From NCBI GenBank assembly GCA_008501765.1, contig QQUE01000002.1:494336-558335 (forward strand): 64,000 nucleotides of DNA, written 5' to 3'. This stretch comes from Calditrichota bacterium (GTDB taxonomy: Bacteria > Zhuqueibacterota > Zhuqueibacteria > Zhuqueibacterales > Geothermadaptataceae). Numbering within the stretch: the stretch's first letter is position 1; every line of letters begins with the position of its first letter. The notes beneath the pieces are model-generated. The model made no database searches. It was not told the DNA's origin and saw nothing but the letters and a program-made list of their open reading frames with translations. Of the stretch, positions 1 to 39,015 are shown one piece after another. The position numbers and the translations under genes were made by a program.

Positions 1-3000
1 CCGGCATTTCAACAGCAACAATTGTGGCTACGCACACCACAAATGGTACACGCAAAGAGGTTGTCACTGATATCGAAGGTAATTTTATTGTTGGCGTCAG
101 CTCGGGTAGTTGGGATATTTATGCGCGAAAAACCGGCTATACCGATTCAAATATTGCAACCGTCAACATCGCTGCAGGCAATGCAATCAACCTGGGTCAG
201 AATGCATTTGGACTTACGTTTAAATCGGGAACGCTGAGCGGCGTTGTGCGCAACACAAATTATTCGGGTGTTCTTGGCGCTGTCGTTCGAGCCTACAACA
301 ATACGGACACCAGCACCACAACGACTGCGGTCAATGGTTCGTACAGTTTTACGCTAACAGCAAAAACATGGACTATCGTTGCCGAAAAAACAGGGTACGT
401 CAGCCCGCAACCTGTCTCGCGCAGCGTTCCAAATGGTGGCGTTGCAACGGCAGATTTCTCGTTAATTCCGCGCGCCAATATTATCGTTGGCTACGTTACG
501 GACGGCAGCCGTGCTTTAAACAGCGCCACAGTCACAGCAACACCCGAAGCTGGTGCGCCCGTAAACGCAAAAACCAATAACCTTGGGCAATTTTCATTAA
601 GCTTGGGCTCCGGTACTTTTACACTCCACGCTACAAAAACCGGCTACAGCAGTGGAAGTGACACACAGGTTTCGGTCACCGTTGGAGAAACAGTTTCGGG
701 TGTTAATTTCGAGCTCTCACCGAATCCATCTTCAATTTCCGGAAAGGTAACATCAGACGGGACAAATAGCGTTGCCGGGGCAACGGTTACAAATGGAACC
801 GTCAGTGCAATCACCAGCAGCAGCGGCAATTTCAGTCTGTCACTGCCGGAAGGCGAGCACAGTATTTACGCTACAAAAAGCGGTTACGCAACATCGGCGA
901 CCCAAATACTTACGCTTTCTCCCGGGCAAAATCTTGCCAATCTTGATTTTCGAATTACACCCAACGCAGCAACTGTTACCGGAACAGTTACCGGTAGCGG
1001 GCTGGCTCTTTATCAGGCAACAGTACGTGCATCCGGGGAGACGGGCCAATTTCAGACTACAGCTGATGAACAAGGAAATTATTCGCTCAGCCTGCAACCC
1101 GGCAGCTATTCGATTTTAGCCACAAAACCGGGATATATTGTGCCTGCAGCAATAAATGTTACCGCCAATCCGGGGCAAAGTGTTGCCAACATTGATTTTT
1201 CCCTCATTTTAAATAAAGGAACAATTAAAGGAGTTGCACAATCGGCCTCAGGAGAGCTGCTGCGAAATGTCAAAATTATGGCAACTGAATCAGGCAAAAG
1301 TGAGAATTCCGCATCGACGACAACCACTATTTCAGGTGAATATACGCTTAAAATTACAGCTGGTATTTCCTGGGCAGTTTCCGCTACAAAAGTGGGTTAT
1401 GCCAGTGACGCTGCTGAAGCGGCAATTTTGGCGACCGGCAGCACCCGAATCGAAAACTTTACACTCACGGCCCTTCCCAGCTCGGTCGCCGGCACCGTGC
1501 GTGATGGCTCGGGCAATGGAATCGAAAATGTGATTGTTAAATCTGCTCTCGACAGTATAGCCACGAATCACCTTGGCAATTATATGCTGCATTTGGCCAG
1601 CGGCACCCATGCATTGAGCGCGGAAAAATCCGGGTACACAAAAAAATCTGCATCAATCGTGCTGACGCCCGGGCAAAACCTGACCGGTGTCAACTATACT
1701 TTAGATGGTTTGTTTGCTTCTTTTACCGGCACAATTTTTTCCGGCCAGGCTTTTCTTGAAGGGGCTGTGGTAAATCTGAGCTCACCACAAGAAAATGCCT
1801 CAGCCAGCTCAAACAGTCAGGGGAAATTTACCTTTTCCCAACTCATTCCCGGCACGTATTCACTTGCGATCTCACGTACAGGCTATCAAACTCTGGATTC
1901 TACGATCGTTCTTGCTGAAAATGAAAATAGCTCTGCAAATTTAAATCTAAAAATTATTACCGGTGAAATCAATGGAATCGTGCAAAGTAGTAGCCGGGTT
2001 TTGTCAGGCGCTACTGTGCAAGCAAGTGGAAACGGCAATAAATTTAGCGCCATTTCAAATCAGAATGGCGAATACACATTGACCGGCCTCCCCAAAACCG
2101 ATTATAAACTCACCGCAGCGCTGAGTGGGTACAGCAGCCCGCCGGCTGTTGAAAATATTTCGCCAGACAGTACTGGCGTTGACTTTTTACTCACCGCAAA
2201 TAAAGCACAGCTCACCGGGATTGTGAAAACCGATGAAGAGCCAATCGAAGCGGCTGATGTTGTTTTGCAAGGTGAAAATGGCAACACCGGCCAGGGGAAA
2301 ACCGGTGTCGATGGCAATTTTAGCATTGAAAATCTCGCTGCAGACACCTATTCGATAACCACATTGAAAGATGGTTTTGTGATGGCCGAAAGTGAAATGC
2401 AGGTTTCGCTTGATCCCGGTGCGCAGGACAGCCTTGTCGTTCTCATGGATGAAATTTCACTGGTGATTTTAGGGCAAGTCAAAGCGAAAGGCACGCCTCG
2501 CGGCAATACACCGTTGCAGTTGCGAAATGGGAGCTTTGTTGTCAACAAATCTTCCGATGGAAACGGGAGCTTCTCATTTGGCGGATTGCGGCCGAATTCA
2601 ACCTACACCGTAGCAACAAATATTTTCAAAGAGGGTATTACTGAAGCCGATTCCACAATCTTTTTAGCGCAGGACAATGTCTCCGGTATTGTACTTAATG
2701 TCAGCGTAGCCGCGGGTGAAATTTATGGTACTGTTGGAATTAACTCAGCATCAGTAACAGCCAAATTTTCAGACGGAACAACTTATAGCACCGTCAGCAA
2801 TTCCGAAGGAAAATACAGCGTCAAACAATTGCCCCAGGGGGCCTATACAGTTTCGGTCAGCAAATCCGGTTTTGAATCATCGCCGAATTCACGATCGGTA
2901 ATGGTGCCAGAAACCGGTGCGGTTGAAGCTAATTTTACCATGACTGCTTACGCAGGTGGGATCGCTGGTTCCGTAATAAACGGCGAAAACAAAAACATGC

Positions 3001-5594
3001 AAGGCGTGCAGATCACGGCCGTTGCCGAGGGAATTACACCATTTGCAACTTCGACAAATGAAAACGGGGGTTTTGAATTTTCACTTCTTCCCGCCGGAAA
3101 ATCCTACACAGTCACACCGAATCTATCCGGATTTAGTGCGAATCCGGCACAGAAAACGGTGCAGGTGCAGAACAACCAGGTGCAGTCGGTCGATTTTGTA
3201 CTGATCAAAAATGAAGCCCAAATTTCCGGAGAGGTAACTTCAAAAAGCAGTGGTGAAAAATTGGCGAATGTTCGGGTGGTTTTACAGGATACGAGCACGA
3301 GTCAAGGATGGAGCGGCACAACTAATGAACTGGGGAAATTTCTCTTTGAAAATTTATCACCAGCCTTTTATCGACTTGCCCTTTCAAAGGGAGGGTACAC
3401 CGCTGTTGAATCGGAAACATTAATAGATCTCACTGCCAGTGGCGCGAAAGAAATTTCTCTGCAAATGGAATCTCAATCCGCACGTTTACACGGGGTTGTT
3501 AACTACCGCGGGCAGGGAGCGGAGGGGACCAAAGTAATCGCCTCCGGATCATCGGAGTTTTCAACAGTTGTCAATAGTCAGGGAAGCTTCAATTTTCAGG
3601 AAATTCCAGCGGGTGTCTACAGTATTTATGCTGTAAAAACAGGATTTCCATCCATTTCTCTGCCTGATATTGCGGTCGCCAAAGGAAGTGATAATTTTCT
3701 ACCCCTGGATTTTCCCGGCGCTCGAATACAAGTCGCGATTTCTGATGGAAAGAACGTGGTTAACAATGTGCGCGTTTCGATAAGCACGCCCACGAGTCAG
3801 GCGGTGCTCATCACGGACGCCGGGGTGGAATTATTCCGCGGTGAAATTCTCGATAAATCCAGCGGAACGATCGTTTCGGTGAGCGATAATTCGGGCATGA
3901 TTACCACGGATTCATTGCGATTGGCAGGCACGTACCAACTGGTTGTCGAAAAGAATAAATATTTGATTCCCAAATCCGAGTTCCTTAATTATCGTGTTGG
4001 TATTGATGAATTGAAAAAAATTAACATCCCCCTCGTATTTCAACATACAGCTGTCTCTGAGGCCAATGCAAAAGATTCTGTTCTAATTAAATTAGATTTC
4101 ACCGGGTCGCTACCGAACAACTCGGTGAGTCAAGCCAATTTGTGGGTCAAACGCATTGGGGCGGATAGCTTTTCTGCCACGCCAATGTTTTACGTCGTTG
4201 ATCAGTTTCAGGCAATGATCGCACCCCACAGCCAGTCGGGCAGCGCCTCCTATTTCATCACCGCACACTATGCAATGGGAGATAGCAGCTGGATTTATGA
4301 AAGTCCGGTTAAAACGATCAATCTAACCGCCCGTGATGTGCTTTATACGCTCCATATTTCACCGGGCCGCGGCATCATTCAAAAGGGTGCACGAACAAAA
4401 TTGACCGGCAATCCCGTTGACGATACTGGAACAACTCTCGAAGCGCTGGTTCTCGCCAGCGGATCTTTTGTTTGGGAACTCGTTTCTGCTAACAGTACTG
4501 CCATTTTAGAGCAGGATTCAATAAATCCGTTGCAAGCTTATTTATGGCCACAAATCGAAGGTGAAATCAGGGTTCGGGCGACCTCAACACTTGACGGCAT
4601 CACTCGCAGCAAAGAATATAAATTTACCAGCCGGACCATGGAATTAGGCGATATCAGCATTCAGGCGCCGACAACGGCCTCAAACACAGAACCGATTCGC
4701 GTTAATTTTATCGCCACGAGCACCGATTCGGTTGCCATGCGGCTGGACAGTGAATGGCGCGTTTTTCCAGCCACGGCGGGAACGATTTCAGAAAGTGGGC
4801 TCTTCACGCCGTCGCCCCAATTTATGGGGGATGCCACCCTGACTCTAATCGATCTCACCAGTTCAAAAGAGCAAACCGCAGTTGTGAATTTGTACACTGC
4901 GATTGACAGCACCACCGAAGGCGTTTTTTCCGACGGCACCGGTTTTGAACTGAAAATCCGCAAAAATGCTGTCGCGCGAAAACGGCAAATTAGTCTCTAT
5001 AAACCCAACTTGCCGAATGTGAAAAAATTCACAAAATCCTATCAGGTAAAAAGTGAAGTTTACCAATTGCTGCCGGCCGGCCTAGAATTTCAGACTTTTC
5101 CAGAAGTCGTTCTGCCGGTGGAAGCAAACACAGCCAATGACGAGGCTCACATTGGCTGGTGGGAACAAACACAGCTCCAATGGCAGCCGCTGCACACGGA
5201 AATATCCGATAGTTCGCTCAGCGCCTTCGTGCAAAGTTCTGCCCAGTTTGCTATTTTGCAGGAGAATGAACCGCTCGGCATCCACGGGCTCAGTTTTCTG
5301 CCACGGGTGTTCTCGCCGAAGCGCGGTGTAATGCGTATTGGTTACGCACTTTCCGGCAAAAACGGGCAGGCATTTGTCACGATTCGAATTTACAATCTCA
5401 GTGGCGATCTGGTGCGAACGCTGCTCGAAAGAGAACGGCAGTATCCTGGCGTGCACACAGAAAGCACTACCGCCTGGGACGGCCGCACGGACAGCAATAA
5501 AATGGCACGAAACGGTCGTTATCTTATTGAAATTATTGCAGAAGATACGAAAAACACCAAGCGCAAACTGGATACCATTGTTTTGGTGAAATGA
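1..5594 (+). CDS. Giant repeat-built surface protein with ZU5-like and FlgD-like C-terminal domains (5' end missing)
   Basis: The frame is open to the left edge (first whole codon at base 3), so the gene starts outside the window; a GTG at 24 lies inside the first visible repeat and is not a credible start. About 15 tandem beta-sandwich repeats of roughly 80 residues fill the first two thirds. Each has the carboxypeptidase-regulatory-like pattern: G.V....G..GA.V.., then G.F.L.L..G.Y.L.A.K.GY. A region resembling a ZU5 domain follows (about residues 1620-1740, with PAGLEFQTFPEVVLPV). The last 90 residues are a FlgD-like Ig fold (RIYNLSGDLVRTL, AWDGR, NGRYLIEI), common at the C-terminus of exported proteins in FCB-type phyla. 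Its role is probably structural or adhesive at the cell surface. The N-terminal export signal is not visible. The next gene on the same strand encodes an outer-membrane barrel, possibly its partner. Confidence 0.85.
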   Translation, partial: GISTATIVATHTTNGTRKEVVTDIEGNFIVGVSSGSWDIYARKTGYTDSNIATVNIAAGNAINLGQNAFGLTFKSGTLSGVVRNTNYSGVLGAVVRAYNNTDTSTTTTAVNGSYSFTLTAKTWTIVAEKTGYVSPQPVSRSVPNGGVATADFSLIPRANIIVGYVTDGSRALNSATVTATPEAGAPVNAKTNNLGQFSLSLGSGTFTLHATKTGYSSGSDTQVSVTVGETVSGVNFELSPNPSSISGKVTSDGTNSVAGATVTNGTVSAITSSSGNFSLSLPEGEHSIYATKSGYATSATQILTLSPGQNLANLDFRITPNAATVTGTVTGSGLALYQATVRASGETGQFQTTADEQGNYSLSLQPGSYSILATKPGYIVPAAINVTANPGQSVANIDFSLILNKGTIKGVAQSASGELLRNVKIMATESGKSENSASTTTTISGEYTLKITAGISWAVSATKVGYASDAAEAAILATGSTRIENFTLTALPSSVAGTVRDGSGNGIENVIVKSALDSIATNHLGNYMLHLASGTHALSAEKSGYTKKSASIVLTPGQNLTGVNYTLDGLFASFTGTIFSGQAFLEGAVVNLSSPQENASASSNSQGKFTFSQLIPGTYSLAISRTGYQTLDSTIVLAENENSSANLNLKIITGEINGIVQSSSRVLSGATVQASGNGNKFSAISNQNGEYTLTGLPKTDYKLTAALSGYSSPPAVENISPDSTGVDFLLTANKAQLTGIVKTDEEPIEAADVVLQGENGNTGQGKTGVDGNFSIENLAADTYSITTLKDGFVMAESEMQVSLDPGAQDSLVVLMDEISLVILGQVKAKGTPRGNTPLQLRNGSFVVNKSSDGNGSFSFGGLRPNSTYTVATNIFKEGITEADSTIFLAQDNVSGIVLNVSVAAGEIYGTVGINSASVTAKFSDGTTYSTVSNSEGKYSVKQLPQGAYTVSVSKSGFESSPNSRSVMVPETGAVEANFTMTAYAGGIAGSVINGENKNMQGVQITAVAEGITPFATSTNENGGFEFSLLPAGKSYTVTPNLSGFSANPAQKTVQVQNNQVQSVDFVLIKNEAQISGEVTSKSSGEKLANVRVVLQDTSTSQGWSGTTNELGKFLFENLSPAFYRLALSKGGYTAVESETLIDLTASGAKEISLQMESQSARLHGVVNYRGQGAEGTKVIASGSSEFSTVVNSQGSFNFQEIPAGVYSIYAVKTGFPSISLPDIAVAKGSDNFLPLDFPGARIQVAISDGKNVVNNVRVSISTPTSQAVLITDAGVELFRGEILDKSSGTIVSVSDNSGMITTDSLRLAGTYQLVVEKNKYLIPKSEFLNYRVGIDELKKINIPLVFQHTAVSEANAKDSVLIKLDFTGSLPNNSVSQANLWVKRIGADSFSATPMFYVVDQFQAMIAPHSQSGSASYFITAHYAMGDSSWIYESPVKTINLTARDVLYTLHISPGRGIIQKGARTKLTGNPVDDTGTTLEALVLASGSFVWELVSANSTAILEQDSINPLQAYLWPQIEGEIRVRATSTLDGITRSKEYKFTSRTMELGDISIQAPTTASNTEPIRVNFIATSTDSVAMRLDSEWRVFPATAGTISESGLFTPSPQFMGDATLTLIDLTSSKEQTAVVNLYTAIDSTTEGVFSDGTGFELKIRKNAVARKRQISLYKPNLPNVKKFTKSYQVKSEVYQLLPAGLEFQTFPEVVLPVEANTANDEAHIGWWEQTQLQWQPLHTEISDSSLSAFVQSSAQFAILQENEPLGIHGLSFLPRVFSPKRGVMRIGYALSGKNGQAFVTIRIYNLSGDLVRTLLERERQYPGVHTESTTAWDGRTDSNKMARNGRYLIEIIAEDTKNTKRKLDTIVLVK

Positions 5595-32968: not shown

Positions 32969-33187
32969 TCATAAAATGCCCTGTTCTGCAACACACCAAT
33001 CTCACTTTGAAACACTCTGTCCCACCAGCCAACTTTTTAATTATTAGCCACTAGTCCCCCTAATTTCCTTCGTCATGCCTTGCTTCCCACCTAATATTAT
33101 TCCAATTTGAAACATGGTATAGCGTTTGCACTAAAGTTCACAATAATTAATCCACGGGGTAACAACAATAACCAGAGAACAGCACGA

Positions 33188-34300
33188 ATGAAAAAGACAA
33201 ACCTTGGTATTCTTATACCAAAAATCTGCGACAGTACGTACTCACAATCCGATCTTTATCAATTTGTAAATTTAGTGCAAAAAATTTCCTTAAGTTATTT
33301 AAAGTACCAGGAAGTAATTGGCAAACATATTCGTTGGGAGCGACGCGAGAGAAATTCAGAACTGGAAGATATGGCCATCGATTGCGTGGCAGGTCTATTT
33401 ATGCGAAATGACGAAAACGAATTTGTCCAGCTCAAGCGGTATTTCGAACCTCATTTAATGGAAACACCCGCACCAAATGATGAAGAACTCCTCATTTTAC
33501 TCCGCCGTTTGGCAATCAAAAAGACGAAACAAGAGCTTTCCCGCATTTTTAAAGAACGCGATCCGGAAGGTGCCAAAATTATTAGAAACATTCGGGTAGC
33601 CGTTAAAAACTCCGATGATTTTGGCACCTTCCGTGAAATGGGCCGTGAATACATTTATTTTCAACCCGAGGTGCTTGAACCTATAAGTGAGTATAATTGC
33701 ACGACAGTCTATGCCAATTCACCTGATGAAACGCCAGACAACGAATATTTGAGAAAAGATCAACCGACAATTCCTGAAAAGACGTTGCGCGATCTGTATT
33801 TGGAAGATTATACACCAAAAGATCATGTATCAACAAGCATCCGAAAAATGCTCCGTGTTACAGCAGAAGAAGAAAAATTTCAAAACTGCCTGCCAACCGA
33901 TGCCATTGCACGTCTCATTCGTTATACCAATTTCGAAGTTGTACGATCAAAACTTGTTGCTCAAATCGAAGTTGATTCACCCCTTGACTACGTTCGCATG
34001 AAAGAAATCGAAGAAGCCAAACGCAATGTATTAGTCAAAATCAAATCGAAAATACAAGTTCAATATGTTCGTTCTTTTAAAATTAGCGAGGAAAAAGGCG
34101 AAATATATTACCGGACATTGGCCGATGTACTCGACGATATCACACACAATAAAAAGATTGAAAGCTATTACCGTCACCTGCGAAAATATGTGCCTGAATT
34201 AACGCAAAAACAATATCGCAGCGATGAGCGAACAATTTTTGAATATTTGGGTAAACTAACCAAAAAGTGGTTTCGGGAGTATCTCAAAGATTTACTTTGA
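33188..34300 (+). CDS. Unrecognised 370-residue cytoplasmic protein, possibly sigma-factor-like
   Basis: I do not recognise this family. It has no signal peptide or membrane helix and is highly charged and helical. The stretch SELEDMAIDCVAGLFMRND (about residues 59-77) faintly resembles the ELEDLxQDVFxxLW pattern of sigma-70 region 2. The C-terminus (TQKQYRSDERTIFEYLGKLTKKWFREYL) could be a DNA-binding helical bundle. The next small gene has an HxxxCxxC zinc motif like those of anti-sigma factors, giving a sigma/anti-sigma-like pair, which is the main reason to consider this reading. I chose the ATG at 33188; an in-frame ATG at 33107 would add a 27-residue, low-complexity tail. Confident that it is coding, not of its role. 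Confidence 0.6.
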   Translation: MKKTNLGILIPKICDSTYSQSDLYQFVNLVQKISLSYLKYQEVIGKHIRWERRERNSELEDMAIDCVAGLFMRNDENEFVQLKRYFEPHLMETPAPNDEELLILLRRLAIKKTKQELSRIFKERDPEGAKIIRNIRVAVKNSDDFGTFREMGREYIYFQPEVLEPISEYNCTTVYANSPDETPDNEYLRKDQPTIPEKTLRDLYLEDYTPKDHVSTSIRKMLRVTAEEEKFQNCLPTDAIARLIRYTNFEVVRSKLVAQIEVDSPLDYVRMKEIEEAKRNVLVKIKSKIQVQYVRSFKISEEKGEIYYRTLADVLDDITHNKKIESYYRHLRKYVPELTQKQYRSDERTIFEYLGKLTKKWFREYLKDLL

Positions 34301-34374: not shown

Positions 34375-34638
34375 ATGGATTCTTCTTACCAAGTCAAGCG
34401 CTTTCAAATAAACTGCCCGGCTTCCGAAGTCATTGAAAAAATTCTCCTGCAAGCATATAAAAATCCTGTGCTTATGCAGGTATTTGAAGAGCACTTTGTC
34501 TCTTGCTCCAGATGCCAAAAATTCGTGAAAAATATTCGTACATATTACGAAATATTGGAAGCTGAACTGGAAAAACCAATTTCTGCAAAAGTTGCCAGAT
34601 TCGCGGATTCACTTGGCACCGGATGTAAAAAATCATAA
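34375..34638 (+). CDS. Small zinc-finger protein, anti-sigma-like
   Basis: The protein has 87 residues, is soluble and has no membrane helix. The motif HFVSCSRCQKF (His45, Cys49, Cys52) is the HxxxCxxC core of zinc-binding anti-sigma domains, here within a helical region (VIEKILLQAYKNPVLMQVFEE before, NIRTYYEILEAEL after). Another cysteine lies in INCPASEV near the start. Such soluble zinc anti-sigma domains bind sigma factors directly. It follows the unrecognised 370-residue gene, which is the natural candidate partner. The start codon lies 11 bases after the strong hairpin, and no clear ribosome-binding site is seen, so translation may depend on that structure. Confidence 0.65.
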   Translation: MDSSYQVKRFQINCPASEVIEKILLQAYKNPVLMQVFEEHFVSCSRCQKFVKNIRTYYEILEAELEKPISAKVARFADSLGTGCKKS

Positions 34639-34791: not shown

Positions 34792-37284
34792 ATGATGGAA
34801 GATCTGAAAATTTTAGTTGTAGATGCCGACCCGAAAAATCTACAAATATTAAAAGAAACTTTTGAAGCCTCCGGCTTCCTTATCGACACAGCCGTAGACG
34901 GTGACAAAGCTTGGGAAATTTTGAACTCATCCCAGCCAGATCTTATTCTTTCTGAGGTAAACCTGCCCGATTACGATGGTTTTCAATTCCTCCAAAAAAT
35001 TAAACAGAACTCAGCCACTGCCCACATTCCGGTAGTTTTTCTCACAAATCGGCGTGATTTACAAGACCGTGTTCGATCCTTGCGCGGCGGTGTAAAAGAC
35101 TACCTTATAAAACCCGTTCATGTAAAAGAAGTTATAGCTCGTATTCGGATGATTTTACGGAGACTGGAGCGGGTTAAAAATGAGGAAATGGATTCCTCAA
35201 ATAAAGTTGTCGGCCGACTGGAAGAATCGAGCGTAATTGAATTAATCGAAAATTTCGGTATGGAAAGACGCAGTGGCGTTTTGAGTATTTACAATGAAAA
35301 CAACAAGAACGGTGAAATTCACTTTCGGGGCGGGGGCATTGTCTATGCATCCCTGGGAATGATCAAAGCTGAAAAAGCAATTTATCAGATGTTGCCCTGG
35401 AAATGCGGTCACTACATTATAACTTTCCGGGAAGTAAATACCGCCGACTCTATTTCTGTGAGCAATCTTGGATTGCTTCTACAGGGATTTAGGCGGCTCG
35501 AAGAACGCGAAAACCTGATCAAAAAACTACCTTCGCTCGAAACAACGTTTGTTCTTTCCAAATCATTTCAACAAATAATTAGTCAGAAAGAGCTGGCGAG
35601 CGACGTAGCTAAATTCCTGAACCTCATTAATGGAAAACGGGATATTCAGCAAATAATTGATGAAAGTGTTTACGATGATATTAAAACCCTGGAGCGACTC
35701 GTAAAATTATCGAACCAGGGATTCATTGTGCCGGGTACTGGAAAAGAGAACGAAACGCCACAAATAAAAGTTGGCGGCTCCATCGGAAAAGAGACTATCG
35801 AAGAACTGCCGTTACCTGAGCCACCGGTGGAATCGGTGCAGGAGCACCTTGGAACTGAAGAATTCTCGACGACCATGGGAAATGGACTGCCACCAATCCC
35901 GGATGACCACAAATCGCCTGCGGTAAGTTTCATGGATGAGGACCCGGAAGAGGCTCTCGATCGACCAGAAGATGAACAATTTAGTTCAGATGAACTCCAG
36001 ACAAAACCGGATGATGTATCTTCTGCAAAGACAGAAGATTTGGCATCACCACATTTGTCTTCTCAGGACTTTCCTGCATTTGATGATTTCAGTGAAGATA
36101 TTGATAGCGATCGTATTATTTCGGAAACTGAACCGTCTTCACCAGAACCGGATGAATCGGACGAGTCTGAGGAATATGTCGCCCCGCCGATGCCGATGGA
36201 TATGAAGGACTTCGCACCAGATACAGATATATTTGAAATAATTCAGGAACTGAAAAAAGACCGCGAACTTGACGTCACGGAAGCAAAACTAACTGAAACT
36301 CACAACTTAAATAAATCAACACCGCATCTAAATGGGGGCAACAAATCCACTGCGGTGGAACCATCCGAATTGGAATCCGATCCCGAGGAAAAAGAACAGC
36401 CAGAGGCACAAAAAACGCGAGATCTCTCATTTTCTTTTCCAAAACGTAATTATGGTTTTATTTCAAAAGCCGGAAAAGAATCTGCATCTTCTCCAGCGAT
36501 TTTATTTAACGAAGATCCTACTGGAACTTCAACGAACCAAAATTCTGAAACGGATTCACGGTCTGAGCAAGCCGATACATTGGACGGAAATGTTACCGAA
36601 CAATCAGACGAACTGTTAGATGCAACCATTCCGCCCAACCTACCGGCAGCTCCGCAAGCGGAGAATGGTTCACCCCTTTCAATTTTTCCCGAGGATGATA
36701 ACAAAGAAGCCAACTCCTTCACAGACTTTAAAAATATAAATCAAATTTTCCTCGATTACCTCCAATTTGCGAAAAAACAGCCGGGAACCTTTGTTATCAT
36801 CGGGTCAACACAAACAGATGCCAACAACCTGGTAAACAAAATATGCAACATAGAACAATCACAGGCTCAGAATTCCAATCAGATTTCAATTGGAACCCTC
36901 AAGTTGGACGGTGGCAGCCCATTTAAATTACTGGCTATTTCGATGGAACAGCAATTTACAAAGTTGCTAAATGGAATTCAAAGCAATTTGACTGGTTTCC
37001 TACTGCTTTTCCAGGCTGGAGACAAAAAACAAATCGAATATTTAAACTACTTTTATTCTGCGCTAAATAAAAAATACAAACTCCCTGTCGGGATTGCACT
37101 TCTTAAATCCCAGGGTAAAAAATCATTAGCCCCGGCAACAATCCGTGACTTGATCAACGGGGACGAATCTGATTTTATCGCTAATCTCAACCAGGGGCAG
37201 ATCAACGATGTATCCACATTTCTATCTGACCTGCATCGCCACTATACTGCTATTAAAGACCGAGAAGAACATGAAACGGATTGA
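34792..37284 (+). CDS. Receiver-PATAN(DUF4388) protein with degenerate GTPase-like C-terminus
   Basis: The protein has 830 residues. Residues 1-125 form a receiver domain in which the phospho-acceptor Asp is Glu55 (DLILSEVNLP), while Asp11/Asp13, Thr85 and Lys107 remain. Residues about 140-230 match DUF4388/PATAN (GRLEESSVIELIENF, RSGVLSIY, GEIHFRGGGIVYASLG, LPWKCGHYIITF). A winged-helix-like LINGKRDIQQIIDESVYDD follows near 280-300. Residues about 330-640 are acidic, low-complexity and probably disordered. The last 180 residues resemble a small GTPase (TFVIIGSTQTDANNLVNKI, ISIGTLKL, GFLLLFQAG) but lack the P-loop GK[ST]. The same fold seems repeated in the 157-residue gene at 38542. The protein cannot be phosphorylated in the usual way and may be a scaffold. 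Confidence 0.85.
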   Translation: MMEDLKILVVDADPKNLQILKETFEASGFLIDTAVDGDKAWEILNSSQPDLILSEVNLPDYDGFQFLQKIKQNSATAHIPVVFLTNRRDLQDRVRSLRGGVKDYLIKPVHVKEVIARIRMILRRLERVKNEEMDSSNKVVGRLEESSVIELIENFGMERRSGVLSIYNENNKNGEIHFRGGGIVYASLGMIKAEKAIYQMLPWKCGHYIITFREVNTADSISVSNLGLLLQGFRRLEERENLIKKLPSLETTFVLSKSFQQIISQKELASDVAKFLNLINGKRDIQQIIDESVYDDIKTLERLVKLSNQGFIVPGTGKENETPQIKVGGSIGKETIEELPLPEPPVESVQEHLGTEEFSTTMGNGLPPIPDDHKSPAVSFMDEDPEEALDRPEDEQFSSDELQTKPDDVSSAKTEDLASPHLSSQDFPAFDDFSEDIDSDRIISETEPSSPEPDESDESEEYVAPPMPMDMKDFAPDTDIFEIIQELKKDRELDVTEAKLTETHNLNKSTPHLNGGNKSTAVEPSELESDPEEKEQPEAQKTRDLSFSFPKRNYGFISKAGKESASSPAILFNEDPTGTSTNQNSETDSRSEQADTLDGNVTEQSDELLDATIPPNLPAAPQAENGSPLSIFPEDDNKEANSFTDFKNINQIFLDYLQFAKKQPGTFVIIGSTQTDANNLVNKICNIEQSQAQNSNQISIGTLKLDGGSPFKLLAISMEQQFTKLLNGIQSNLTGFLLLFQAGDKKQIEYLNYFYSALNKKYKLPVGIALLKSQGKKSLAPATIRDLINGDESDFIANLNQGQINDVSTFLSDLHRHYTAIKDREEHETD

Positions 37285-37311
37285 CACCCTACCGATTTTA
37301 GAAGTGGCCTG

Positions 37312-38526
37312 ATGCGAAAAAAAATTTTAATTGCTGATAATTTCGAACATGAATTCACCGAGTTGCGACAATCTTTAATTGCCGCAGGCTATGAAGTACG
37401 CATTGCGTCCAACGCTGGTGAAATAATGCCGCTTGTTCAGCAAATCAGCCCGCATTTGATCATCATTGAAACACGCCTCCCCGATCTCGATCTCAAATTG
37501 TTTATTCAACAAATAAAGAAAAACGCCAATTATTCCCTTATACCAGTCGTTTTAGCGGGTAATCCCCGGACAATCGAAGAAAAAGAGAAAATTTTTAATT
37601 TTGAAATTGATGAATTTCTCTATAAACCCTATGAGCCGGAGGAAACGCTTGTCCGGCTTGAGACGCTTCTCAAAGAAGCAGAACTGGCCAAAGAAAAGGT
37701 GCCGGTTACAACCGGAGGATTTAACGGCTCTCTCACCGAAATGACGCTTGTCGACTTGTTGCAAACGTTGGATGTTGGTAAAAAAACCGGAATAATCAAG
37801 CTGGGAACAGATAATGTTGAGGGATTTACTTATGTGACGGACGGCGAAGTCATCAATGCTGTTTTGGGTGATCTCGAAGCCAAACCTGCTTTGCTGCGTA
37901 TGTTTACCTGGAAGACCGGCTTTTTTGCCGTCAAAATGCAGCCGCACCACACCGAAAAAAAAATATTCATGACAACACAGGAATTAATATCGGAAGGAAT
38001 TACCCGCCAATACCGCTGGAAAAAACTTTCAAATGACCTGCCGTCCTTGCAAACTATTGTGCAAAAAGTAGTTCCAATCATTGAAAATTTAAATAAAGAT
38101 GAATTAAAATTAGCGGAAATGATCGATGAGAAAAAGCGCTTCATCGATATTATCGAAAAAAGTCCGTTTGATGATTTGAAAGCGTTACGAATTTTAAAAA
38201 AACTCTATGAAAATGATGTCATCAAAGGTATTGAAAACTCTTTTACAAAAACAAACGAAGAGAGCGTTGTATCAGAATTTATTGATCAAAATGTCGAGCA
38301 AAGCCCGCCTCAACGGGTTGAGAACACTTTTACCAAGGCACTAAAACATGCTGCATCGCACATGCCTCCCCATTTTGATCGCAGAAAAACGGAACGGCGC
38401 CGCGACGGCCGCGTCGAAACGGACAGGCGGCACGGATACCGATCACATCCGGGAAATATCTGCCTCAATAAAAGTGAACTAATCATGCTGCGAAATAAAT
38501 TAATCGCAGAATTGCAGCACAAATAA
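37312..38526 (+). CDS. Second receiver-PATAN(DUF4388) protein with Glu in place of phospho-acceptor
   Basis: The protein has 404 residues. The receiver again has Glu at the acceptor site (LIIIETRLP, Glu53). It is further degraded: the second acidic residue is Asn10 and the usual Thr/Ser is Ala82, while Lys105 is kept. The PATAN domain follows (GFNGSLTEMTLVDLLQTL, KTGIIKLG, GEVINAVLGDLEAKPALLRMFTWKTGFF), then a winged-helix-like segment (LAEMIDEKKRFIDIIEKSPFDDLKALRILKKL). The last 70 residues are basic (DRRKTERRRDGRVETDRRHG) and may bind nucleic acid or membrane. It begins 27 bases after the previous gene with the same domain order, indicating duplication. The cluster may transduce by protein contact rather than phosphorylation; this is inference. 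Confidence 0.87.
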   Translation: MRKKILIADNFEHEFTELRQSLIAAGYEVRIASNAGEIMPLVQQISPHLIIIETRLPDLDLKLFIQQIKKNANYSLIPVVLAGNPRTIEEKEKIFNFEIDEFLYKPYEPEETLVRLETLLKEAELAKEKVPVTTGGFNGSLTEMTLVDLLQTLDVGKKTGIIKLGTDNVEGFTYVTDGEVINAVLGDLEAKPALLRMFTWKTGFFAVKMQPHHTEKKIFMTTQELISEGITRQYRWKKLSNDLPSLQTIVQKVVPIIENLNKDELKLAEMIDEKKRFIDIIEKSPFDDLKALRILKKLYENDVIKGIENSFTKTNEESVVSEFIDQNVEQSPPQRVENTFTKALKHAASHMPPHFDRRKTERRRDGRVETDRRHGYRSHPGNICLNKSELIMLRNKLIAELQHK

Positions 38527-38541
38527 GAATCGGAAATTGAA

Positions 38542-39015
38542 ATGCGCATTGGTGAAATAGCCGTTGTCGGAGCAGATAACGAAGATAGAATTCAATTTTT
38601 GAAGTCAATTTGTGAACCATTGGAAACTATAAATGACAACATAAGCTTTGGACGCTATAAAATTAACGAACAACTTCTCATCCATTTTTATGGAATATTT
38701 CCAGAGAAGGATCAGTTATCTTTAGACCTGATTTCACGAAAAATATTGGGCTATATCGTTCTTTTTCGTTGGGGAAATGTAAATTCATTTCGGCAGGCAC
38801 AAAAATTTGCTGATCTTTTTACCACACGCTATGGGGCCAATGTTGTGATCGCCGGACAGGTTGAAAATAACTTGCCACAAATGCCGAAAGAATTTGAAGC
38901 CGGTATTCCAATTGATAAACAAGGTGTTTTTGCATTTTGTAACATTAACGACGATAAAAGTGTGCGCAAAGTTATACTGGCTCTGGTTGATCAAATTATC
39001 GATCAAGCTGAATAA
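38542..39015 (+). CDS. Degenerate small-GTPase-like (MglA-related) protein
   Basis: The protein has 157 residues. It follows the beta/alpha order of the small GTPases usually found with PATAN proteins: EIAVVGADNEDRIQFLKSI (G1 position, but without GxxxxGK[ST]), ISFGRYKINEQLLIHFYGIFPEKD (position of the switch-II GTPGQ element, lost), GYIVLFRWGN (the strand normally ending VDxR) and ANVVIAGQVEN (normally NKxD). Every nucleotide-binding signature is eroded, so it probably does not bind GTP. Its sequence parallels the C-terminal domain of the 830-residue protein upstream. It lies 15 bases after the second receiver-PATAN gene, so the three form one operon. Confidence 0.7.
   Translation: MRIGEIAVVGADNEDRIQFLKSICEPLETINDNISFGRYKINEQLLIHFYGIFPEKDQLSLDLISRKILGYIVLFRWGNVNSFRQAQKFADLFTTRYGANVVIAGQVENNLPQMPKEFEAGIPIDKQGVFAFCNINDDKSVRKVILALVDQIIDQAE

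Follow-up and report, generated by a model that had tools for sequence, protein, structure and literature searches.

We analysed a stretch of 64,000 nucleotides from a Calditrichota bacterium (hereafter the window), in which three co-directional genes, designated A, B and C, follow one another with intergenic gaps of 27 and 15 bases. The features of this operon are as follows.

34792..37284, plus strand: gene A (receiver, PATAN/DUF4388, variable linker and pseudo-GTPase tail), 830 amino acids; open reading frame and Pfam.
34810..35148, plus strand: A receiver domain, residues 7-119; Pfam PF00072, E 6.9e-25.
34954..34956, plus strand: codon of A Glu55, in place of the phospho-acceptor Asp; Glu in 46/47 class sequences, Asp at 6/6 sister-class loci.
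35212..35508, plus strand: A PATAN/DUF4388 domain, residues 141-239; Pfam PF14332, E 4.4e-13.
36784..37281, plus strand: A pseudo-GTPase tail, approximately residues 665-830; homology to C, AF2 pLDDT 90.3, Foldseek matches to Arf, Arl, Rab and Ras.
37312..38526, plus strand: gene B (degenerate receiver and PATAN), 404 amino acids; open reading frame and Pfam.
37324..37656, plus strand: B receiver domain, residues 5-115; Pfam PF00072, E 5.5e-10.
37468..37470, plus strand: codon of B Glu53, at the acceptor position; Glu in 38/53 class sequences.
37726..38022, plus strand: B PATAN/DUF4388 domain, residues 139-237; Pfam PF14332, E 3e-16.
38542..39015, plus strand: gene C (stand-alone pseudo-GTPase), 157 amino acids; AF2 pLDDT 84.7, pTM 0.83, Foldseek top 50 all Ras superfamily.

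DUF4388 (PF14332) scored 49.8 bits in A and 60 bits in B against a curated cut-off of 25, and PF00072 was above its cut-off in both proteins. C gave no match in a Pfam scan, and neither C nor the A tail had a convincing match when scanned against Pfam and NCBIfam. Promoter and terminator scans of the region were uninformative, a sigma-54 promoter search yielding matches at chance level only.

An earlier note on this DNA had read Glu at the acceptor site of both receivers, and alignment confirmed Glu at the acceptor column for A55 and B53 alike. When homologous operons were surveyed for Asp versus Glu, the A column held Glu in 46 sequences and Ala in one (n = 47) within the window's class, where Glu55 ranked as the ninth most conserved of 125 receiver positions, while all six sister-class loci (L153-L158) had Asp. 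In B the class showed Glu in 38 of 53 sequences, with Asp, Gly, Ala, Thr, Tyr or Asn in the remainder. Because the residue is conserved across the class in A and in B, the acceptor Glu cannot be put down to chance. For comparison, 58 further receiver stretches were sampled from this genome, of which 54 had Asp and two had Glu, and the neighbouring NtrC-type regulator had Asp in 25 of 25 homologs. One of the two non-operon Glu receivers belongs to a third receiver-PATAN protein of the window's genome (L228/L071). A Glu acceptor was also seen in two further receiver-PATAN proteins outside the operon, at L071 (G000:C8:186238-186969) and L230 (G045); the receiver-PATAN proteins in L229, L231 and L072 had Asp.

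Both A and B match the receiver profile and lack the acceptor Asp and the acidic metal-binding pair, so that they are pseudo-receivers, recognized as receivers by computation with the phosphotransfer residues missing. The two sites nevertheless differ in what surrounds them. Among Glu-bearing A receivers, the conserved Thr/Ser was kept in 44 of 46 and the Lys in 46 of 46 (Thr85 and Lys107 in the window), and of the 47 class sequences a single one had Asp at the second acidic position, which is Ala in the window; the acidic residue was kept at 5 of the 6 sister-class loci. Since A retains the Thr/Ser and Lys to which a phosphomimetic Glu would bond, its receiver fits a locked phosphomimetic. 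In the window, B has Asn at the second acidic position and Ala at the Thr position with Lys105 retained, and Thr/Ser was kept in 10 of 38 Glu-bearing B sequences; in the sister classes (n = 5) the B acceptor was already Glu, Ala or Gly and the acidic pair was absent. By alignment, B is therefore a generally degenerate receiver that was degenerate before the classes split, and the Glu residues of A and B are not equivalent. The remark of the earlier note that Asp-to-Glu replacement often mimics phosphorylation would accordingly fit A, in which Thr/Ser and Lys are kept, better than B, in which Thr is mostly lost.

PMC12632262 names Glu as the commonest replacement in receivers without Asp, with the second acidic position often lost, and puts forward as a hypothesis that such a Glu acts as a partial phosphomimetic via the conserved Thr and Lys; as a counterpoint, it reports that exchanging this Glu was without effect in some pseudo-receivers studied. 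The same paper calls the on/off control of bacterial pseudo-receivers a mystery and discusses non-phosphate mechanisms, direct and indirect, which would be compatible with a module that is still switched, by a small ligand or partner protein at the receiver or PATAN domain, and is regulated rather than constitutive. The variable degeneracy of B likewise fits an interaction surface better than a mimic. Against this, the Glu, Thr and Lys retained by A are precisely those that a mimic would need, and neither a ligand pocket nor a sensor partner was identified in this analysis; we regard a switch of this kind as unlikely, though it deserves serious attention.

Comparison of the C and A-tail profiles (hhalign, 99%, E 4.1e-18) indicates that the two are homologous. 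The AF2 model of C (pLDDT 84.7, pTM 0.83) gave a Foldseek top 50 made up entirely of Ras-superfamily proteins, with E down to 1.6e-8, and the model of the A tail (pLDDT 90.3) had Arf, Arl, Rab and Ras as top matches; these predicted structures support a small-GTPase (Ras/Arf) fold for both parts, rather than the unrelated fold that the earlier note had allowed for. Sequence-only matches to solved structures were weak and mostly to small GTPases (Rab3B, E 2.4e-4; Sar1, E 0.007). Among the GTPases of the phylum, the intact GTPGQ type aligned full length with the C and A-tail profiles (E 2.3e-14 and 1.4e-12), and Group-1-like MglA aligned poorly (E 0.63 and 2.6e-4).

The P-loop GxxxxGK[ST] is absent from the window's A tail and C, and no intact P-loop was found in any A tail or C of the window's class. 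Its strict form occurred in 0 of 60 C sequences; the C proteins of L154 and L175 carry GxxxxGK in the corresponding position, but the next residue is Glu or Gly rather than Ser/Thr. In the alignments of C and of the tail, the positions corresponding to G3 (TVPGQ or GTPGQ) and G4 ([NT]KxD) showed neither motif. Profile comparison, AF2, Foldseek and motif alignments thus agree with the original reading of the third gene and the A tail as small GTPases without nucleotide motifs. Both keep the fold, have lost the catalytic and binding motifs and are conserved under selection, which makes them pseudoGTPases, with loss of nucleotide binding predicted. In the sister classes, five of six A tails have GxxxxGK, the sixth reading GSARSGRS, and NKxD and the DxxG-type motif are already missing; the ancestral domain may therefore not have been a full, working GTP switch.

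The operon contains no roadblock (MglB) gene, and the only roadblock match of the genome lies far away at C8:1279376. In other bacteria, certain MglA genes of Groups 1 and 5 do have PATAN genes nearby (PMC4316618), so that the association of PATAN proteins with MglA-like GTPases mentioned in the earlier note is documented as gene proximity. Elsewhere, the window's genome codes for an intact, P-loop-bearing MglA of Group-1-like type next to roadblock-type proteins (L257), and roadblock proteins occur in 75 of 82 genomes, as would suit A-B-C being a platform for the intact MglA/MglB pair that steers polarity as RomR and FrzS do in Myxococcus. MglA/MglB is, however, present also in classes without A-B-C, some genomes with C (G015, G068 and G040) have no roadblock match, and the A-B-C and MglA/MglB loci are unlinked. 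We consider such a platform rather improbable.

A tree of A, computed by a quick method without the two trait columns, separated the class rows from the sister rows by one branch, with SH-aLRT 99, and required only two acceptor changes, one Asp/Glu and one Glu/Ala. Ancestrally, the receiver superfamily has the Asp acceptor and the GTPase superfamily has the P-loop, which sets the direction of change from Asp to Glu and from P-loop to its loss. The tree thus needs a single Asp/Glu change, placed where the window's class begins. Relative to G001, Ka was 0.095 for C, 0.077 for the A receiver, 0.077 for the A PATAN region and 0.361 for the A tail, compared with 0.104 for cysK, which is adjacent, and 0.633 for the A linker; Ks was saturated or >1.5 throughout, so Ka/Ks can be given only roughly, though it lies well under 1. 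These substitution rates indicate purifying selection, with the tail of A clearly less constrained in sequence than C.

The earlier note had held that homologs with Asp and intact P-loops would show local decay only. Such homologs do exist in the sister classes, but decay does not follow, because the loss is one ancient, class-wide change under purifying selection. That the operon is dying in one lineage could draw on the lack of C in the assemblies of G003 (same family) and G037 (same class), yet it is refuted by class-wide conservation, intact reading frames, Ka far below Ks and the rank of Glu55 among the most conserved receiver positions, and we give it almost no credence. The loss of both switch chemistries is class-wide, selected and fixed, with more intact relatives in the sister classes, which makes the observation stronger than the earlier note had put it.

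The C profile matched 61 of the 82 genomes of the phylum (KSB1), all of them represented by assemblies and many or most by MAGs; C itself was found in 60, G044 being the one genome matched solely through its A tail. With the A receiver-PATAN alignment as query, at least 22 strong relatives were found among the matches listed, mostly labelled as KSB1, Calditrichaeota or Caldithrix MAGs; among the matches listed after those 22, other phyla were matched by the receiver part alone. Wherever contigs extend far enough the order is A-B-C, with two exceptions: C was not found at L157, and at L153 a single frame joins A to B through a tandem repeat, which may be an artefact of assembly. At the latter locus (2838-5177) the A tail, which has an intact P-loop, ends after a duplicated SEFVRTLCGL and runs into the B receiver, by fusion or assembly error. 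In the window's class the operon is often preceded by an NtrC-type gene and by a member of a conserved family of unknown type, and in the sister classes it lies between a SpoIID gene (Pfam) and a run of genes that we take, from our own reading of the sequences, to be trigger factor-ClpP-ClpX-Lon. The occurrence of A-B-C in two differing genomic settings indicates that the three genes stay together.

This distribution also bears on the target. PATAN proteins PixE, PixG and TaxP2 interact with PilB1 (PMC7690835, PMC10519157), and the pseudo-receiver FrzS acts with MglA in pilus control (PMC11580455), so A-B-C could be imagined to regulate the type IV pilus motor, like the cyanobacterial PATAN response regulators that bind PilB. 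Nine C-bearing genomes, however, lack any match to PilB or PilT and another five have weak ones only, several of them being at least 95% complete, and strong PilT matches occur in 20 of the 22 genomes without C. On this phyletic pattern the pilus motor was rejected as an obligatory target, and we judge its regulation by A-B-C to be improbable.

In the window the operon lies between lpxB-lpxK and an LpxL-like acyltransferase. A link to lipid A was not taken as its function, because the operon is retained in family f7, where LpxK has no match, and the sister-class operons adjoin SpoIID and trigger factor-ClpP-ClpX-Lon instead. The LpxK match is absent from 8 of 8 f7 genomes (G019, G024, G028, G031, G034, G037, G059 and G060) and present in most of the class; lipid A synthesis has possibly been lost in that family.

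The earlier note had suggested scaffold or contact-based signalling, which we infer from the anatomy of the operon. The reading we prefer is that the switches of A-B-C were lost and the module lives on as a scaffold that is constitutive; it seems to us about evenly balanced between right and wrong. The data show the domain content, the homology, the loss of motifs and its timing, the selection and the integrity of the operon; the complex, its locked-active state, its mode of control and its target we infer. In the ancestor, A would have combined the only genuine receiver of the module with an MglA-like domain that had a P-loop, and the B receiver and the GTPase-like protein C would already have been degenerate. 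In the class ancestor, the A acceptor would have become Glu, with loss of the metal-binding second acidic residue and of the P-loop lysine of the tail. A, B and C would now most likely form a constitutive complex in which Glu55, together with Thr85 and Lys107, keeps the A receiver in an active-like state, both pseudo-GTPase domains offer fixed surfaces for docking and the target is bound through the PATAN domains, with output set by expression or partner binding and not by phosphate or GTP. More tentatively, and with somewhat less conviction than doubt, we propose that the phosphorylation switch and the last trace of a nucleotide switch were lost on the same lineage and that the product, a heteromeric scaffold built from two pseudo-receivers together with two pseudo-GTPases, was fixed class-wide; it would be the bacterial equivalent of the pseudoGTPase scaffolds of eukaryotes.

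Several known systems resemble parts of this module. PATAN-receiver regulators (PatA, PixG, PixE and LsiR) have the receiver and PATAN architecture common to A and B, but here both receivers have Glu, A has a GTPase-like tail, a stand-alone pseudo-GTPase gene is attached and an obligatory pilus-motor role is unsupported. Eukaryotic pseudoGTPases, which include p190RhoGAP domains, degenerate septins and the dynein light intermediate chain, keep a Ras-like fold after loss of the nucleotide motifs as C and the A tail do, whereas the present proteins are bacterial. Like A and B, pseudo-receivers such as FrzS (PMC11580455) and those reviewed in PMC12632262 have the receiver fold without the acceptor Asp; in contrast to these, the A form is lineage-wide, has Asp-bearing orthologs in sister classes and conserves Thr and Lys. 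The GTPGQ-type MglA proteins (Groups 2-5, PMC4316618) share the fold of C and the A tail, which, unlike them, have lost the P-loop, G3 and NKxD and belong to an operon without a roadblock partner. The survey in PMC4316618 left out short sequences without catalytic regions. Searches of the open-licence literature gave no earlier description of a bacterial pseudoGTPase, the results being eukaryotic or unrelated; the present family documents conserved pseudo-GTPases in bacteria. Orthologs of A have Asp together with a P-loop in the sister classes, whereas those of the window's class have Glu and lack the P-loop; as Thr and Lys are constant, the phosphomimetic idea can be tested on natural relatives. 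Because the class keeps broken switches under strong selection and the sister forms are less broken, the idea of a dead switch as a fixed scaffold is also directly testable.

Some further observations concern the neighbouring genes. The unknown family upstream of the operon (window 33107-34300), for which no convincing Pfam match was found even when it was searched as an alignment, has 16 aligned class members with 44-89% identity to the window copy and many invariant residues (e.g. TKQELSRIF), and its usual place is between the NtrC-type gene and A-B-C. A small protein at 34375-34638 carries a His-x3-Cys-x2-Cys pattern (HFVSCSRC) resembling that of an anti-sigma zinc finger and is approximately 215-230 amino acids long in several relatives. 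In the window's genome the MglB-MglA genes (L257) immediately precede those for trigger factor and ClpP, and in the sister classes (L154-L158) A-B-C lies upstream of these same trigger factor/ClpP genes.
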